56,346 nucleotides of DNA. It comes from Bacteroidota bacterium. GTDB taxonomy: Bacteria; Bacteroidota; Bacteroidia; UBA7662; CANHCV01. Shown here one piece after another: positions 34,899 to 42,838 of this stretch. The position numbers and the translations under genes were made by a program. The notes beneath the pieces are model-generated. The model ran no database searches. It saw only the letters and a program-made list of their open reading frames with translations, and was not told where the DNA came from. Location: assembly GCA_947459245.1 (NCBI GenBank), contig CANHCV010000009.1:1-56346 (forward strand), given 5' to 3'. The stretch's first letter is position 1; the number at the start of each line of letters is the position of its first letter.

Positions 34899-36773
34899 AT
34901 GAAACGCATCGCTTTCCTTCTGTTTTCCGTATTTCATTTGGCCTCGTTGGCTCAAACGAACCTTCCGAAAAAGGCTGAAAAAATTTACCAAAAAGCCATC
35001 AAAGAAATCAATGCTAATCGGTATCCAGAAGCCATTGTTCTGCTTGAACAAGTTCATGCCTCCAACCCCGAACACGTTAATTCTCTTCTTTCATTAGCAG
35101 ACCTTTATTTCCAAACGGGAAGTGATTCCATGGCCCTCATTTCTTACGAGAAAATCAAAGCCTTTCAAATTGCCACGTACTACAAGGTTTACCTGAATGC
35201 TGGGATATTAAAAATGCGAAAATCCGATTATCAAGGTGCTCAGCAAGACTTTCAAAAATTACTAACTTTCAAGAATTTGTCCTATCAAGCTCACCAAGAT
35301 GGGAAAATGTATTTGGCCGATTGCTCTTTTTCAATGGAAGCCCTCAAAACCCCTTATCGGGTTGATTTGAAAAATTTAGGAGACCATGTCAACACCCCAT
35401 TTTATGAAAATCGTGGGTGGTTGGATGCCTCAGGACAACAGTTGTTTTTCACCCGAAGAGGAGTCAACGACGAAGACATTTATGTCTCCAACAAAAAACA
35501 GGATGGCAGTTTTGATCTTGCAGAACCGGTTTCTTTGGAAATCAATACCGCTTCCAACGAAGGTGGCAGCTCGGTTTCAGGAAATGGAAAATTGTTGTTT
35601 TTTACCGCTTGCGACCGAGCCGACTCTCGTGGTTCGTGCGATATTTACGTCAGCGAAAAAATGGCGAATGGCCGTTTTGGCGCTCCAAAAAATTTAGATC
35701 CCATCATCAATTCCCCTTGGTGGGAGTCTCAGCCCAGCATCAGCTCCGATGGGAAAACCATGTTCTTTCTCTCCAATCGACCTGGAGGGTACGGCGGTTG
35801 GGACATTTGGAAGAGCGTTCATCTGCCAAGCGGTTGGAGTGTTCCCGAAAACCTTGGGCCAACCATTAACACTCGATACGATGAGGCTTCGCCTTTCGCT
35901 CATCCGGATGGCAGAACATTGTACTTCGCCAGTGCCGGTCACCCTGGCTTTGGTGCCAAAGACCTTTTTGTTTCCCACCTAACCGATTCCGGTTGGAACC
36001 GCCCCATGAATTTAGGATCTCCCATCAACAACGCCATGGATCAATCGGGAATATGGATCAGCACCGATGGAAAATCGGGCATTCTCACTTCTGATGATGC
36101 CCCCAATTTAGGTAAAACGGATTTGTTTTCGTTTGAGGTTCCTGAACCGTTCCGACCATGGCCCACCCAGTGGAATCGTTTTAAATTTATTGATGCGCAA
36201 ACCCAAGCTCCTATTTCGGTTCATTTAACCATCAACGAACCCATCAGCAGAACCAATTATTTCAACGATTTCACCAAACCCAATGGTGGAGCAGATATCA
36301 TTTGCGTGCCTTCCGAAAAAACGTTCAGCATCCATGCCGAAGCCCCAGGGTATTTGTTTTTTTCAGGACAATTTGCTCCCACCCAATCGGAAATGACCAT
36401 TGCCATGGAGCCGCTTCAAGTTGGAAAAATGGTAGCTTTAACCAACATCTTTTTTGAAAGCAATTCCGACAGTATCCTACCTTCTTCCGATTCTGAAATT
36501 GTTGTTTTGGCACGTTTCCTTAAATCGAACCCACAGTTAAGGGTAGAAATTCAAGGACATACGGATGCGGTAGGGAAAAAAGATGCCAATCTAAAACTGT
36601 CTGATAAGCGAGCGAAAGCATTGTTTTTAAAACTTCGCCTTTTGGAAGTCCCCTTCAACCAAATTGAATTCAAAGGTTATGGAGATGCTCAACCTATTGC
36701 CGATAATGGTTCTGAGCTCGGACGATCAAAGAACAGACGGATTGCTATTAAGATCGTTCGCATCAATCCATAG
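34899..36773 (+). CDS. OmpA-family protein with TPR and propeller domains (PorE-like)
   Basis: The 624-residue protein has a signal peptide (MKRIAFLLFSVFHLASLA), TPR helices (about 20-140), a WD40/PD40 propeller (residues about 150-420, with repeats such as ISSDGKTMFFLSNRPGG and HPDGRTLYFASAG), a short carboxypeptidase-regulatory-like domain (about 430-500) and an OmpA peptidoglycan-binding domain (about 510-624, IQGHTDAVGKKDANLKLSDKRA). This order is the architecture described for PorE of the T9SS. Related proteins with the same layout exist, so assignment to T9SS is probable, not certain. Unlike a lipoprotein it has no lipobox Cys. Its end overlaps the convergent helicase gene by 11 bp. Confidence 0.8.
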   Translation: MKRIAFLLFSVFHLASLAQTNLPKKAEKIYQKAIKEINANRYPEAIVLLEQVHASNPEHVNSLLSLADLYFQTGSDSMALISYEKIKAFQIATYYKVYLNAGILKMRKSDYQGAQQDFQKLLTFKNLSYQAHQDGKMYLADCSFSMEALKTPYRVDLKNLGDHVNTPFYENRGWLDASGQQLFFTRRGVNDEDIYVSNKKQDGSFDLAEPVSLEINTASNEGGSSVSGNGKLLFFTACDRADSRGSCDIYVSEKMANGRFGAPKNLDPIINSPWWESQPSISSDGKTMFFLSNRPGGYGGWDIWKSVHLPSGWSVPENLGPTINTRYDEASPFAHPDGRTLYFASAGHPGFGAKDLFVSHLTDSGWNRPMNLGSPINNAMDQSGIWISTDGKSGILTSDDAPNLGKTDLFSFEVPEPFRPWPTQWNRFKFIDAQTQAPISVHLTINEPISRTNYFNDFTKPNGGADIICVPSEKTFSIHAEAPGYLFFSGQFAPTQSEMTIAMEPLQVGKMVALTNIFFESNSDSILPSSDSEIVVLARFLKSNPQLRVEIQGHTDAVGKKDANLKLSDKRAKALFLKLRLLEVPFNQIEFKGYGDAQPIADNGSELGRSKNRRIAIKIVRINP

Positions 36774-39700
36774 ATAAAACTTTCCCGTTTCTTTCGATCC
36801 AATTGATCAACTGTTCGTAAGGAGAGGAATCAATCAGAAATTGCCGATTCCCGAATAAGACGAATTGCTTTCTCGCACGAGAAATTGCAACCAATAGTTT
36901 TCGATCTACCCCATTCTGTTCGGTGGAAGTCAACGCTTCTAAATAATTCCGTCCATTCACACAGGTGGAAAACAAGATATAATCGGCTTCACTGCCCTGA
37001 AATCGTTCCACGGTATCAATAGGAATTAGTTTTTCGATTTCATCTTGCAAATTCAACAATGCCCGTTGCCTACGAATGGCTTCTTTTATTTCTTCAATTT
37101 GAGCTCTCCAAGGGGTAATGATTCCTAAAAAATCTCCCCAATCTTTTTCTTGGGTTTTCCTTTGTACCAATTGAAGTACGATTCTTGCCAAATCATCGGC
37201 TTCGGATCGATTTACTTTTCCTCGATCTAGATTTCGATTTTCAACAAACACCAATCTTTTCTGCTGGGATTTTTCTCCCCAACCATCTTGAATCATCCAT
37301 TGATCTTGTTGATATTCATTTCCAGTCCTCAATACCGTTGGCAAATAATGGGATGAAAGGGCTTGAGCAATATCGTCATGCATCCTAAAATGGGTGTCCA
37401 ACGTAATCATCCCCTTCCATCCATTACGGTCGTTGAGAAACCATAGGCGTTCAAAAAGAGAATCGGTCCAACGACTAAACAACCCCATTTCCTCCATTCT
37501 CTCCATGGCCGATTTGATGGCTGTATTTTGGATCGCTTTAAGCTTAGAAAGATCGTTCAATTCAAAATCTTGTGCCAGCACCGGTGGCAATTGCTGGTGA
37601 TCTCCGATGAGAATAAATCGCTGAAACAGGGGAATGATGCCCGAAAGCTGGCTCTCGGTTACCTGACTGGCTTCATCGACAATTAAGTTTGGAATTGACC
37701 CTGTAATGGACAAAAAATCGGGGAAACGGGCGGAAAATGATGCAATGGTAGATAGATAAACGGTGGATTCTTTCAATGCATCCGTGTATTCTTTGATGGA
37801 TTGGGACGGATCTGACTCATCGGTTCGAAGCGAAAAAAAGGAAATGCTTTGAGCTTTGAATTTTTGAGCAATTTCTTCAACCGCCCGATTTGTAAAGGCC
37901 AGAACCACTGTTTTCTCATCTTTCTCCTGAAAGCTCCGAACGATTTGAGTGAGTACTCTGGAGGTTTTTCCAGTTCCGGGAGGTCCTTGAATGAGCAGGT
38001 AATCGTTGGCAGATCGGGCCATTTCAACGGCACGCTCAGTGCGATCCACCGTAGAAAATTCAGATTGCGAAAAAGTGGGCTCTGAACAACCCAGCATCTT
38101 TTCAATGGTTTTGGAGTTTCTAGCGTTTGGAAAAAGATTGGAGAGCGATTTAACGGTTGCCCAAATGGTACTATCTAAAAACACTTCTTCCAAATTGAAG
38201 GCAGGTATGGATGCGATGTGTTCATTGGAATAACGAGGAGCAAAGGATTGAAGGGTAATTTTTTGCGCCTCAATTTCAAGTACAACACCTCTGAACCATT
38301 GTTCATTGAGCGGATTCGGTTGTTGATTGGCGTCGCATGCTGTGATTTGGACCAAACTTCCAATGCGAAACGGGTGAGGCCAACCACTGTGCTGGAAAAC
38401 CATCTTTTGATCATCCACTTCCAACAAGGTAGCGGCATGAATCATGGAAAATTTATCCAATTTCTCAGCAACGGATTCCGACCAAATGGATGCGGCACCT
38501 TTGTTTTTTCGGTGAATTCCACTTTGGTAATCACCCAGTTTTAATGAAAGCCATTCGCGCATTTGAACGCTCAACATTCCCAAAAAATAAGCACGCAAAT
38601 AATGGGCTTCGGGAAATGCGTTGATCGATTGATACCCTTCCAAAAAAGTAATCATCTTTTTTATTCCAAAAGCACTCTGCGTTGATTCAAAAACGGGCTC
38701 GAGGGCTTTGATTGCACCGTGAACCTCATTCAATTGGAAGGAGGCCAATCGCTTGCAAGTAGCTAAAATAAAGTTCCTGGCCTCATCCGCTTGAATGAGG
38801 TAGGGATAAACTTGATCTACGTTGAGGTTACGCAGCGATCGATCGGCTGAAGATGCATAGAGGATTGCGCCGCTAACCGAAGCCTTTTCCCCATAAGTTT
38901 GCCGAATAAGTCGATAATACAAAATTGTTTGAACCTCGTATTTCATGTCGATCCAGCCTCCCGGCGCCTTACCCGACTTCAATTCAATGATATCCATGGC
39001 GCCAGATTCCTTTTCAAGCAATAAATCCAAACGTCCGGTAAAACCGTCGGCAATGGAAACAAAGGTTGGCTCAATTCGAATGTCTTTGCTCCCTTCTCGA
39101 ATTTGCTTTACAAAAGTGATCAGATTGGGAGCAACCAAATTTTGAATCTTTTGAACCAGTTCCTTCAATTGATTCTGATCGAAAATAGCCGCTTGCAATT
39201 TATTCTTCAGGAGCGATTTTCGGATGGTTTGTTGGATCCAATCCGAATCATATTTTCCTGCAACCACCATTTGATCCAACAAATCGTTTGATAAAATTCC
39301 CTGCAATAGATGAATTGAAAACACTTCTGCTTTAAACTTGTTCCCAAAAAACGATTTCCAACGTTGACCATTGGGGCCGAAAACTTCTGAAATATCTGAA
39401 ACCGAAAACAAAGCATCGGGATCGAGGATCATCCTACTTTCTGGGGTAACCTTCAAACGGTTTTCCTCTGGCAAAAAATGGAACAAACATACTTTTTGTC
39501 CTACCTCAAGCAAAGGGAGGTAAACCGAAAAATCAAAAAAAGAATTTCTCCCTAACTCAATCACCCAACATTTTTGATGATTGACCGAATAACCAACAAC
39601 TTCCGTTTGAATTTGCACAAGCGTTAATTCAATGGTTTCAAATTGCTGGAAAACAACTGCGGTAGTTTCTAAAGGTGATGGCTTTGTTCCATCGTTTAAT

Positions 39701-39999
39701 AACCAATTCCCATATTCAAGAATTTGGTCTTCCAAGCTTGCAGGCAGTGTTTCTAATTCAAACAACGCCTTCCAAAGGGCAATAGCATCTGCTTCTAAAT
39801 TTGAATTCGATTCTTTTTCTTTGATTAAAAACAACCAACGGCTTAAACCGCTGCGATAATTCCGCGCATTATTCTGGGTCATTCTTTCCAAGAAATATTC
39901 CCACTCGGTTCTCCAAGTAAACGCTCTTTCTCCCGTTTCCTTGAATTGAATAAGCCTTTGATAAGACCGATTGGCCTTCTTTAAAACACCATCCTCCAT
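36763..39999 (-). CDS. Dna2-like nuclease-helicase (PD-(D/E)XK plus SF1 helicase)
   Basis: The start is the ATG at 39999 (MEDGVLKKANRSYQ), 1078 residues; the frame is open 19 codons further. The N-terminal half carries a RecB-like nuclease motif: GRLD (about 322-325) and DIIELKSGK (about 336-344), with the catalytic Asp, Glu and Lys in place. The C-terminal half is an SF1B helicase: GPPGTGKT, LIVDEASQ, GDHQQLPPV, ERFQGSEAD, AISRARKQF. This resembles Dna2, which processes flaps and resected ends. No clear Fe-S cysteine set is visible. It overlaps the upstream HhH-barrel gene by 19 bp. Confidence 0.85.
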   Translation of the reverse strand: MEDGVLKKANRSYQRLIQFKETGERAFTWRTEWEYFLERMTQNNARNYRSGLSRWLFLIKEKESNSNLEADAIALWKALFELETLPASLEDQILEYGNWLLNDGTKPSPLETTAVVFQQFETIELTLVQIQTEVVGYSVNHQKCWVIELGRNSFFDFSVYLPLLEVGQKVCLFHFLPEENRLKVTPESRMILDPDALFSVSDISEVFGPNGQRWKSFFGNKFKAEVFSIHLLQGILSNDLLDQMVVAGKYDSDWIQQTIRKSLLKNKLQAAIFDQNQLKELVQKIQNLVAPNLITFVKQIREGSKDIRIEPTFVSIADGFTGRLDLLLEKESGAMDIIELKSGKAPGGWIDMKYEVQTILYYRLIRQTYGEKASVSGAILYASSADRSLRNLNVDQVYPYLIQADEARNFILATCKRLASFQLNEVHGAIKALEPVFESTQSAFGIKKMITFLEGYQSINAFPEAHYLRAYFLGMLSVQMREWLSLKLGDYQSGIHRKNKGAASIWSESVAEKLDKFSMIHAATLLEVDDQKMVFQHSGWPHPFRIGSLVQITACDANQQPNPLNEQWFRGVVLEIEAQKITLQSFAPRYSNEHIASIPAFNLEEVFLDSTIWATVKSLSNLFPNARNSKTIEKMLGCSEPTFSQSEFSTVDRTERAVEMARSANDYLLIQGPPGTGKTSRVLTQIVRSFQEKDEKTVVLAFTNRAVEEIAQKFKAQSISFFSLRTDESDPSQSIKEYTDALKESTVYLSTIASFSARFPDFLSITGSIPNLIVDEASQVTESQLSGIIPLFQRFILIGDHQQLPPVLAQDFELNDLSKLKAIQNTAIKSAMERMEEMGLFSRWTDSLFERLWFLNDRNGWKGMITLDTHFRMHDDIAQALSSHYLPTVLRTGNEYQQDQWMIQDGWGEKSQQKRLVFVENRNLDRGKVNRSEADDLARIVLQLVQRKTQEKDWGDFLGIITPWRAQIEEIKEAIRRQRALLNLQDEIEKLIPIDTVERFQGSEADYILFSTCVNGRNYLEALTSTEQNGVDRKLLVAISRARKQFVLFGNRQFLIDSSPYEQLINWIERNGKVLSMD

Positions 40000-42014
40000 T
40001 GAATTCTCCAATCGTATTTCGTAGAACCCGTCACCAAATCCACACCACTTCCCCACTCGTTTCGATCCTTTGAATGGAAAACTCCGAATTTAGACGACAA
40101 TTCCATGTTTTTTGCCAAGTCCCATTTGACCAGCGCATACATCCTACTTCCATTTCCGTACAAAGCAGGAACTGAAAAGTAATAGAGTAAATCGCTCTCA
40201 TAAGCATAAATTGCAGTATTAAACGAAGGGGTTTGAAACCATGCCCATCGCAAATTCAAGGTTATCGGACTGCTTAACTTTTTGTATTGAAAATCTTGAA
40301 ACAATGCAAATCCATTTTCAAGGGTTGTTTCTTTTTGAAAACCACTCCATTCCAAACGGGTTTGCCAAGTGATCATTTCGCCGGTTGAAAACTTCGCATT
40401 TCCGCGAAGTCCATACCTTGAATAATCAACCAATGGAGAAATGGGAGCCATTGATAGGGAACTGTTTTCTTGTTTGATTCGGTACCTGCCCCGCAAATAA
40501 AAACTTGATTTCCGACTGGGTGTATATTCGATGTTCACCAAACTTTCCCAGCCGGAACTTGGTGCATCTACCCCAAAACGTAACCAGGGAAAAACAAACC
40601 GATCGATGTAGGAGGAAACGGTCCATTTTTTCCTCGGAATCGCTTGAAATCCGAAGTAAAATCCTTCTTCATTGGTCGCAAGGGTATTTTCTGCAATGGC
40701 GCTTCCGAACAACGTATGAAACCGAGGTGAGAAGTTTCGGTACATGGCCGCCAACGTAAAACGAGCATCCAAAGGAATTAACACCCCTTCTGTTACCGCC
40801 CATCCCGAATCGCCATGGGAAACTTCGCCCCAAACCAATAAATTTTTGATGGAAAATTGGTGATCAAATCCAACATTTAAAATCCGATTACCCTGGAAAT
40901 CAAAGCGATCGTACAAGGCTGAATTTCTCACAAACGGACGAGAAAATGTACTGTGCAAAACCGTAAATCCGACCGTTCCTGAGGAAAATTTCCATTTGAG
41001 GTTACCTCCCAATTGGGTGGTTCTTACTGATTTCCGATCGGCCAATTCTGAAAGTGTTCGATGGTAACCCGATAAATTCAAACCGCTTACAACGACGTCT
41101 TCGCCAAACAAAACCGAATCGTTATTGGCCGATAAATTTGCATCGGAATTTTTGATGGAGGTGAATAAACTCAACTCGAGGGGTGCTCTTGGATGGGCCA
41201 AAACCAGCGCACCGCCACGAAAATACTGGGCCTCGTTGGCGCTGGTATAGGGCACAATCCCCCTCCCCTGACGCAAAACATTCAACACAAAGGGCGATTT
41301 ACCAAATGCCAAACCCGACCATGCCGTAAGTCCCTGTCCGAACTGAACGTTGTAATCGCCAACTATGGCCTTTTTCACCCACTTTTTTCCCATCCATTGA
41401 ATATGTCCGGAAGTGAAATCAAAACCCAATTGGGCCGAATCGAAACGATAGGCTTCGCCGGGATCGTTCTCTGCCACAAAACCCAAGGTTAACCGATTGC
41501 CGTACGTGTATTTGTAACGAATAAAATTCCCTAAAGGCCCGCCCAAATACCGTTTTGAAGACGTATCTGAATACCCAAACGCTAAAGGAAAATTAGCTCT
41601 CGATCGCAGCATTAAATCGTGCTTATCATCGGAGTTTTGAACCATGGGCGTTCCAAAAACAGCTAGAAACGGGGCTAATAATTGGGCTGTTTTTAAATCC
41701 CAACCATCGATGGATTGCAATTCATACACCGATAAAAATGCTCCATATCGATTGCGATGGGCTAAAAATTGTTCAATTTGAATCTCCGATAAAAGCGGAA
41801 TCTGCTTCAGTTCTTCTCGACCAACCGATTGCAAATCCATCGGATGCCTCTGCCAATAATCCAACTTGGAAAACAAATCGGTAAAATCGAAATCTGAACC
41901 AGCGTTTTCAATGATTGCTTGGATCAAATCTTCGGTTGCATTCTGGGTTTTTGTTTGTGCATGGATTTCCGATGCCACCAGAACAAGTAGAATAAATAAA
42001 ACGAATTTCCTCAT
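39981..42014 (-). CDS. outer-membrane barrel protein with ComEA-like helix-hairpin-helix domain
   Basis: The 677-residue protein has a signal peptide (MRKFVLFILLVLVASEIHA), then a helix-hairpin-helix pair at about 55-118 (LQSVGREELKQIPLLSE, then AFLSVYELQSIDGWDLKTAQ) like the ComEA DNA-binding fold, then about 530 residues of amphipathic strands ending in Phe (WRIQWRMVF), an outer-membrane barrel. The HhH domain should face the periplasm. DNA uptake is possible but unproven; HhH motifs may also bind other partners. The start overlaps the stop of the upstream OMP gene (ATGA). Confidence 0.75.
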   Translation of the reverse strand: MRKFVLFILLVLVASEIHAQTKTQNATEDLIQAIIENAGSDFDFTDLFSKLDYWQRHPMDLQSVGREELKQIPLLSEIQIEQFLAHRNRYGAFLSVYELQSIDGWDLKTAQLLAPFLAVFGTPMVQNSDDKHDLMLRSRANFPLAFGYSDTSSKRYLGGPLGNFIRYKYTYGNRLTLGFVAENDPGEAYRFDSAQLGFDFTSGHIQWMGKKWVKKAIVGDYNVQFGQGLTAWSGLAFGKSPFVLNVLRQGRGIVPYTSANEAQYFRGGALVLAHPRAPLELSLFTSIKNSDANLSANNDSVLFGEDVVVSGLNLSGYHRTLSELADRKSVRTTQLGGNLKWKFSSGTVGFTVLHSTFSRPFVRNSALYDRFDFQGNRILNVGFDHQFSIKNLLVWGEVSHGDSGWAVTEGVLIPLDARFTLAAMYRNFSPRFHTLFGSAIAENTLATNEEGFYFGFQAIPRKKWTVSSYIDRFVFPWLRFGVDAPSSGWESLVNIEYTPSRKSSFYLRGRYRIKQENSSLSMAPISPLVDYSRYGLRGNAKFSTGEMITWQTRLEWSGFQKETTLENGFALFQDFQYKKLSSPITLNLRWAWFQTPSFNTAIYAYESDLLYYFSVPALYGNGSRMYALVKWDLAKNMELSSKFGVFHSKDRNEWGSGVDLVTGSTKYDWRIQWRMVF

Positions 42015-42787
42015 CTTTTTTCTACGGTTAGCCCCATCTGACTTCCCAACGGATTTTGATTCATTGCGCCCCAGCCAATTCTAAATCTACCGGGCTGGTA
42101 CGCTATTCCCAATGAAATTGTTTGTGGTTTCGTTTGAAACCCGAGTTGCAACGACCATTTCTTTTGAACTTGATAGGCCAGCCCTAAACGTGCTTGAATG
42201 GAATAAATGGGATCAAGTGAAATTTCGATAACCGATTTGCAGAAAGGGCCAAACGAATGGGAAATGGCGGCATCGATGGAAGGCTGAATGGGCTGTGCGG
42301 TATCAACCCATCCTTCCAAGGAACGCACAGAAACAGCCCAATCGGTGTTTTTTCCCGTTTTTCCCGAAGCATATAAACTTCCTGAGACGTAATTTTCAAG
42401 AACAAACCCAGGAACAACAATTTGATAGGTCGTTAGGCCCAAACCAGCCCAAAAGTTTGCATCTAACTTTCGGGAATACGCTGCATGAACCCCACGTTGA
42501 GAATAATTAGAAACGCCAGAATTCCAGATGAATAAACCGCCTTGTTGACTTTCTTTTTGAACAAAAAGGCCCGCATTGAAATCGTTCAACTCTTGAATTC
42601 CATATTTATTTAAGAATGAAAAACCGTATTGAATTCCGGAATCTGCCCGGCAAGCCGCATTAGAAAAAGCTCGGGAATAGAGCGAGCCAAACTGTTTTTG
42701 ATTCCCCATTCCCCACTGAATGGATTGCTGTGCTTTTAATGAGAAGCCGATCATCAAGACGAAAAAAAGTGAAACAATACGATTCAT
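42011..42787 (-). CDS. outer-membrane barrel protein, FadL/PorV-like
   Basis: The start is placed at 42787 (MNRIVSLFFVLMIGFSLKA), which opens a signal peptide; the longer frame adds 36 residues with no support. The 258-residue product is made of beta strands with the SLYSRAFSNAACRADSGIQYGF stretch split over a loop, similar to the GARAxxxGxA N-terminus of FadL-like PorV/PorQ proteins. I do not recognise a named family. The stop overlaps the HhH-barrel gene (ATGA), and it shares a promoter region with the PPTase gene. Confidence 0.65.
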   Translation of the reverse strand: MNRIVSLFFVLMIGFSLKAQQSIQWGMGNQKQFGSLYSRAFSNAACRADSGIQYGFSFLNKYGIQELNDFNAGLFVQKESQQGGLFIWNSGVSNYSQRGVHAAYSRKLDANFWAGLGLTTYQIVVPGFVLENYVSGSLYASGKTGKNTDWAVSVRSLEGWVDTAQPIQPSIDAAISHSFGPFCKSVIEISLDPIYSIQARLGLAYQVQKKWSLQLGFQTKPQTISLGIAYQPGRFRIGWGAMNQNPLGSQMGLTVEKR

Positions 42788-42830
42788 GATTCTAAGATAA
42801 GGGAGTGGGTGGTTGTTTCCCAAACGACTG

Positions 42831-42838
42831 CAAATGTA
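42831..42838 (-). promoter_or_regulatory. -7 promoter box of the OMP/HhH/Dna2-like operon
   Basis: The minus strand reads TACATTTG, an exact TAnnTTTG match 43 nt before the ATG at 42787. A large inverted repeat sits in the -33 region (42855-42877). Confidence 0.4.

Follow-up and report, generated by a model that had tools for sequence, protein, structure and literature searches.

The window, i.e. the whole stretch of 56,346 nucleotides that was analysed, carries on its reverse strand three overlapping genes to which a preliminary description had drawn attention. The first encodes a small, PorV/FadL-like outer-membrane β-barrel protein (OMP) of 258 aa (42011..42787), assigned on the basis of the ORF, an AF2 model, fold matches in the PDB and the NCBIfam matches of its relatives. 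The second, defined by its ORF, profile matches and an AF2 model, encodes a protein of 677 aa consisting of a signal peptide, a helical segment resembling a helix-hairpin-helix (HhH) domain and an outer-membrane barrel of around 24 strands (39981..42014), and will be referred to as the HhH-barrel. The third is the gene of a nuclease-helicase of 1078 aa (36763..39999). According to their coordinates, the two barrel genes overlap by 4 bp (ATGA), while an overlap of 19 bp between the genes of the HhH-barrel and the nuclease-helicase follows from the ORF list. Genes were called with a basic ORF finder, which also gave a longer ORF for the nuclease-helicase, beginning with GTG at 40056. In two further genomes of the genus, all three genes appear in the same frames, with the same overlaps and lengths, and dN/dS values among genomes of the genus are between 0.04 and 0.12 for the small OMP, the HhH-barrel and the nuclease-helicase alike. 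These data confirm that the three overlapping genes are genuine and under strong purifying selection. Their layout and domains are those initially described, with the qualification that the matches of the window proteins to the Pfam HhH and Dna2 models lie below the respective cut-offs. Some 42 nt ahead of the start codon of the small OMP, the sequence TACATTTG (42829..42836, reverse strand), read directly, matches TAnnTTTG, which we take to be the Bacteroidota -7 consensus, and constitutes a weak indication of a promoter element. On the opposite strand, the gene of a TPR-PD40-OmpA protein (34899-36773), similar to CHU_0125 and PorE at scores below the cut-offs, runs towards the helicase gene. 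The 3' ends of these convergent genes overlap by 11 bp (36763-36773), and this overlap is kept in both other genomes of the genus.

A total of 180 HhH-barrel loci were read, obtained from relatives of the window genome, from 80 named GTDB genomes and from a phylum sample; the three sets are not fully independent, since some named loci may duplicate sampled genomes (e.g. L065 and G001). The nuclease-helicase was the downstream neighbour in three of the 179 loci where such a neighbour was visible, all of them from the window's genus, and two of the three (L041 and L065), being on contigs of the same length, may correspond to one genome. Full-length matches to the helicase were limited, among 40 relatives, to three members of that genus, the window genome included. 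The large HhH-barrel was present in 29 of these 40 relatives and in 242 of the 296 genomes that represent the Bacteroidota in the phylum sample. Immediately upstream and on the same strand, a PorV-like barrel was encoded in 18/20, 74/78 and 51/80 loci of the three samples, typically with a 4- or 11-bp overlap or less than 30 bp apart. With the helicase adjoining the barrel in a single genus and the PorV-like gene preceding it in most loci, these results show that the conserved unit is a pair of barrels, often translation-coupled and found across most of the phylum, and that the trio is confined to the window's genus. That the helicase belongs to a conserved system, as initially hinted, is thus not supported, since in most relatives the trio does not occur together. 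No paper on this HhH-barrel family was found in the open-access literature.

In the nuclease-helicase itself, the motifs of a RecB-type PD-(D/E)XK nuclease (GRLD at residue 322, ELK at 339 and QTILYY at 357) and those of an SF1B helicase (Walker A at 672 and DEAS at 775) are intact, and AAA_11, AAA_12 and PDDEXK_1 pass the Pfam cut-off. Dna2 and RecB-like nuclease-helicases likewise have such a nuclease (GRLD, ELK, QxxxY) fused to an SF1B helicase. The window protein differs from Dna2, however, in that its score against the Pfam model of that name is 19.3, below the cut-off of 22.4, and in the absence of a cysteine cluster after the nuclease. In Dna2, four cysteines around the nuclease domain hold an Fe-S cluster; this pattern was not found in the window protein, whose only cysteines are located at positions 144, 171, 415, 555, 638 and 1013. 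The most plausible reading of the protein is that of a Dna2/RecB-like enzyme processing DNA in the cytoplasm, which was added to the transcript late and in a single genus. It may act on incoming DNA, although the comparative data do not support this. An arrangement in which the three genes constitute one machine in the window's genus, with the barrels importing DNA and the nuclease-helicase processing it, would fit the conservation of the overlapping operon in three genomes, the low dN/dS values and the integrity of every nuclease and helicase motif. We nevertheless consider it very unlikely, given that the helicase is not next to the barrel anywhere outside the genus, that its N-terminus has no signal peptide and its nearest full-length relatives are scattered and only 24-27% identical, and that a transforming strand enters the cytoplasm in single-stranded form, to be handled by DprA and RecA. 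There is about an even chance that the helicase is instead an independent repair or anti-phage enzyme sharing the transcript by accident, which would be compatible with the barrel pair being a DNA importer. This would be in line with the matches of its SF1 half to MkoA/MkoC and PLuB helicase-like models with its sparse distribution and with the occurrence of relatives on Bacteroidota records that are catalogued as plasmids; on the other hand, the PADLOC matches cover the helicase half only and do not amount to a system, and no defence partner genes were recognised among the neighbours scanned.

Regarding the pair, the AF2 model of the small OMP has 14 strands (pLDDT 78.8), and its matches in the PDB fold search include TodX/FadL and the PorV component of the type IX translocon (8gl6_F, TMq 0.74). 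Twelve of its 18 positional relatives match the NCBIfam PorV/PorQ family NF033709, the best with 7.7e-21; the window protein gave no match to this model, and five relatives scored 44-65 bits against a curated cut-off of 90, i.e. below it wherever the score was read. It shares with this family the small FadL-type barrel of 14 strands, and differs in these scores and in having the HhH-barrel rather than SprA as gene partner. As regards type IX secretion, the PorV-like neighbour of the barrel was present in none of nine loci from genomes lacking SprA, compared with 51 of 71 SprA-positive loci (L152-L231; Fisher p 4e-5, a test that ignores relatedness). The nine loci represent three lineages. From the missing neighbour in the SprA-less loci, the small protein, unlike its large partner, may depend on type IX secretion. 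This system was in fact rejected as the parent system of the latter because 67 of 68 SprA-less genomes keep it (63 of them belonging to one family); there are also 53 SprA-positive genomes without the large barrel.

The AF2 model of the HhH-barrel (pLDDT 83.3) consists of a helical N-terminus followed by the barrel, the strands of which were counted on the DSSP line. In the PDB it only resembles generic large barrels (MtrB, TonB-dependent receptors and ushers), with TM values of ~0.4. The HhH-like segment corresponds approximately to residues 57-119 (41658..41846, reverse strand). The window protein reaches 19.2 bits against HHH_3, for which the Pfam cut-off is 27, and 16 bits against TIGR01259 (comE), while 19 of 20 relatives match HHH_3, and several relatives score above the curated cut-off. 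Sequence comparison indicates that the segment is homologous to the HhH of ComEA, with the common signature LNxA...EEL...GxLxSxYEL...GF. It differs from ComEA in being fused to an outer-membrane barrel of ~550 residues and in having lost the GhG hairpins, which in the window protein are replaced by LLSEIQ and GWDLKT. The first hairpin conforms to L-L-[S/N/T]-[D/E]-x-Q where ComEA has PGIG, GhG being present at this place in none of 74 aligned members, and the second glycine of hairpin 2 is gone in nearly all of these 74 sequences. The segment is acidic, its net charge averaging -2.6. By comparison, GhG is retained in the main HhH module of 20 of 21 separate ComEA-type proteins from related genomes, and one such protein, intact and of 292 aa (L061), is encoded in the window genome. 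The general loss of GhG, along with the acidic character of the segment, makes canonical DNA binding by the HhH of the barrel unlikely as judged from sequence, so that the periplasmic DNA-binding module initially proposed is not supported, a proper ComEA being encoded elsewhere in the genome.

A link between the barrel pair and DNA uptake was found in one family, designated f23. All four f23 loci located through the barrel have ComEC as the next gene; the identity of ComEC was established with Pfam PF03772 in two loci, whose proteins then served to recognise it by sequence match in the remaining ones. Among the best 30 ComEC loci of the family, the C-terminus of the barrel was encoded just upstream in 27. 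The remaining three are from genus g41, for which the phylum sample yielded at best weak barrel matches. In wider loci, covering 20 genera, the barrel was just upstream of ComEC in 19 of the 19 genera other than g41, the distance between the two genes being mostly between -19 and +44 bp. The complete order PorV-like - HhH-barrel - ComEC was present in 17 of these 19, including one genus with a small ORF between the barrel and ComEC and one in which the barrel frame is shortened; the two genera left have no PorV-like gene, and in one of them the barrel frame is broken. This order is kept through at least 15 genera, with the gene after ComEC varying among them. Outside f23, ComEC was not seen in any of 175 visible downstream neighbours of the barrel. 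Locus L161, which seemed to have comEC as neighbour according to the N-terminus of the product, encodes a methyltransferase/GT87-like protein instead. The f23 layout is one ancestral arrangement, in which the pair and ComEC likely form an operon, and the retention of the barrel-ComEC junction while the neighbours change argues for a functional tie. Proximity to comEC, which the preliminary description had proposed to look for together with dprA, was therefore found directly after the barrel in f23, g41 excepted, and nowhere else in the loci sampled. Of the DNA-uptake hint contained in that description, the part concerning the two barrels is sustained through this linkage, while the helicase and the HhH as DNA binder no longer contribute to it. 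In the window genome itself, comEC, dprA and comEA are all on other contigs (C3, C33, C45). The ComEC gene of the window's genus (G000:C3:14620-15405, also G001 and G002) has an open frame of 524 aa, compared with ~690-720 aa in most relatives.

The co-occurrence of the barrel with ComEC or DprA proved uninformative, because both are near-universal (40/40 and 38/40 relatives, respectively). The barrel is not present wherever the competence core is: genus g6 has no barrel and yet retains ComEC, accompanied in most of its genomes by DprA and ComEA, and from this genus and g41 it can be concluded that ComEC does not require the barrel. Two large families of the phylum sample, f25 and f26, have SprA and no HhH-barrel; judging from their size and richness, they may be the Weeksellaceae and the Flavobacteriaceae, in which case the transformable Riemerella would be among them. 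As for secretins, none was detected in the window genome, nor in most of its sampled class. Ten genomes of this class do bear a secretin, nine of them from one family, and these have no barrel or only a weak match. In other classes, however, secretin and barrel occur together, and for this reason the idea that one replaces the other was not argued from their distribution.

Taking these data together, the barrel pair is most likely the outer-membrane part of a DNA import route, the main rival being a large transporter unrelated to DNA. In bacteria that have no type IV pilus secretin, the large barrel would be the conduit bringing DNA across the outer membrane into the periplasm. The HhH of this barrel would have lost DNA binding and could act as a periplasmic gate or docking domain, and the PorV-like barrel may be an accessory or assembly partner. 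The intact ComEA-type protein, encoded separately, would then retain the DNA before it is pulled through ComEC. We give a probability of roughly 0.45 to this reading, in which the pair is the functional unit, with the large barrel as DNA conduit, the small one as accessory and the helicase as an addition in one genus. Against it stand the limitation of the comEC arrangement to one family, the acidic HhH without GhG, the genera and the large family f26 that lack the barrel, and the structural matches of the large barrel, which give no pointer to DNA.

The rival would have the two barrels as a transporter or assembly module for large substrates of another kind (e.g. a glycan, a protein or a lipid), in which the HhH would be a structural plug; the f23 comEC operon would be a frozen accident of gene order. 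Although we regard it as somewhat improbable, several observations could be accommodated by it: the acidic HhH without DNA-binding hairpins, the neighbours read outside f23, which are unrelated to competence, the genera that retain ComEC, ComEA and DprA without the barrel, and the PorV/PorQ type of the small partner, known from type IX secretion. This rival does not readily account, however, for a barrel-ComEC junction maintained through so many genera while the gene after ComEC changes, nor does the independence of the large barrel from type IX secretion favour it. The DNA-import reading could be extended to the whole phylum, the pair then being a new type of DNA-uptake pore in Bacteroidota, with a single-chain barrel of ~24 strands, a ComEA-derived HhH converted from receptor to gate and a PorV-like barrel; it would take the place of the type IV pilus secretin and hand DNA on to ComEA and ComEC. 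This broader proposal is the more tentative one, and we would rate it as rather doubtful. Such a pore is proposed to do what PilQ-type secretin channels do, letting DNA through the outer membrane, and it would differ from them in being a single-chain barrel as opposed to a secretin ring.

In Porphyromonas gingivalis, transformation needs ComEA and ComEC, and the outer-membrane step has been described as unclear (PMC11532111). A concrete candidate for this step in Bacteroidota is the barrel pair, because in f23, with the exception of g41, its gene unit runs into comEC, the gene of the inner-membrane DNA-import channel, and this has a bearing on gene spread in gut, oral and aquatic communities. 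Natural transformation is routine in laboratory Chlorobaculum tepidum (PMC3842273), a possible carrier of the unit. The proteins involved in transformation of Riemerella anatipestifer (RA0C_RS02645, RS04915 and RS04920) likewise include an HhH protein and a predicted outer-membrane barrel. RA0C_RS02645 is essential for transformation; the position of its HhH, residues 236-301, agrees with the separate ComEA-type protein described here and not with the HhH-barrel. RS04915 is a predicted barrel of the carboxypeptidase-regulatory-domain type, unlike the HhH-barrel (PMC8459023). No barrel gene such as this one was reported in a transposon screen of 3000 mutants of R. anatipestifer (PMC8459023), which would count against the DNA-import reading if that species carries one.

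Regarding other neighbours of the pair, the gene directly upstream, in divergent orientation, encodes in one locus (L166:6840-7718) a protein that Pfam confirmed as DUF4835, and proteins with N-termini resembling it are found at many other pair loci. In the Parabacteroides distasonis and Bacteroides finegoldii records (L302, L303), the barrel gene is located beside nadA, an RNA methyltransferase gene, a DUF4294 gene and a radical SAM gene, and in the B. finegoldii record no PorV-like gene adjoins it.
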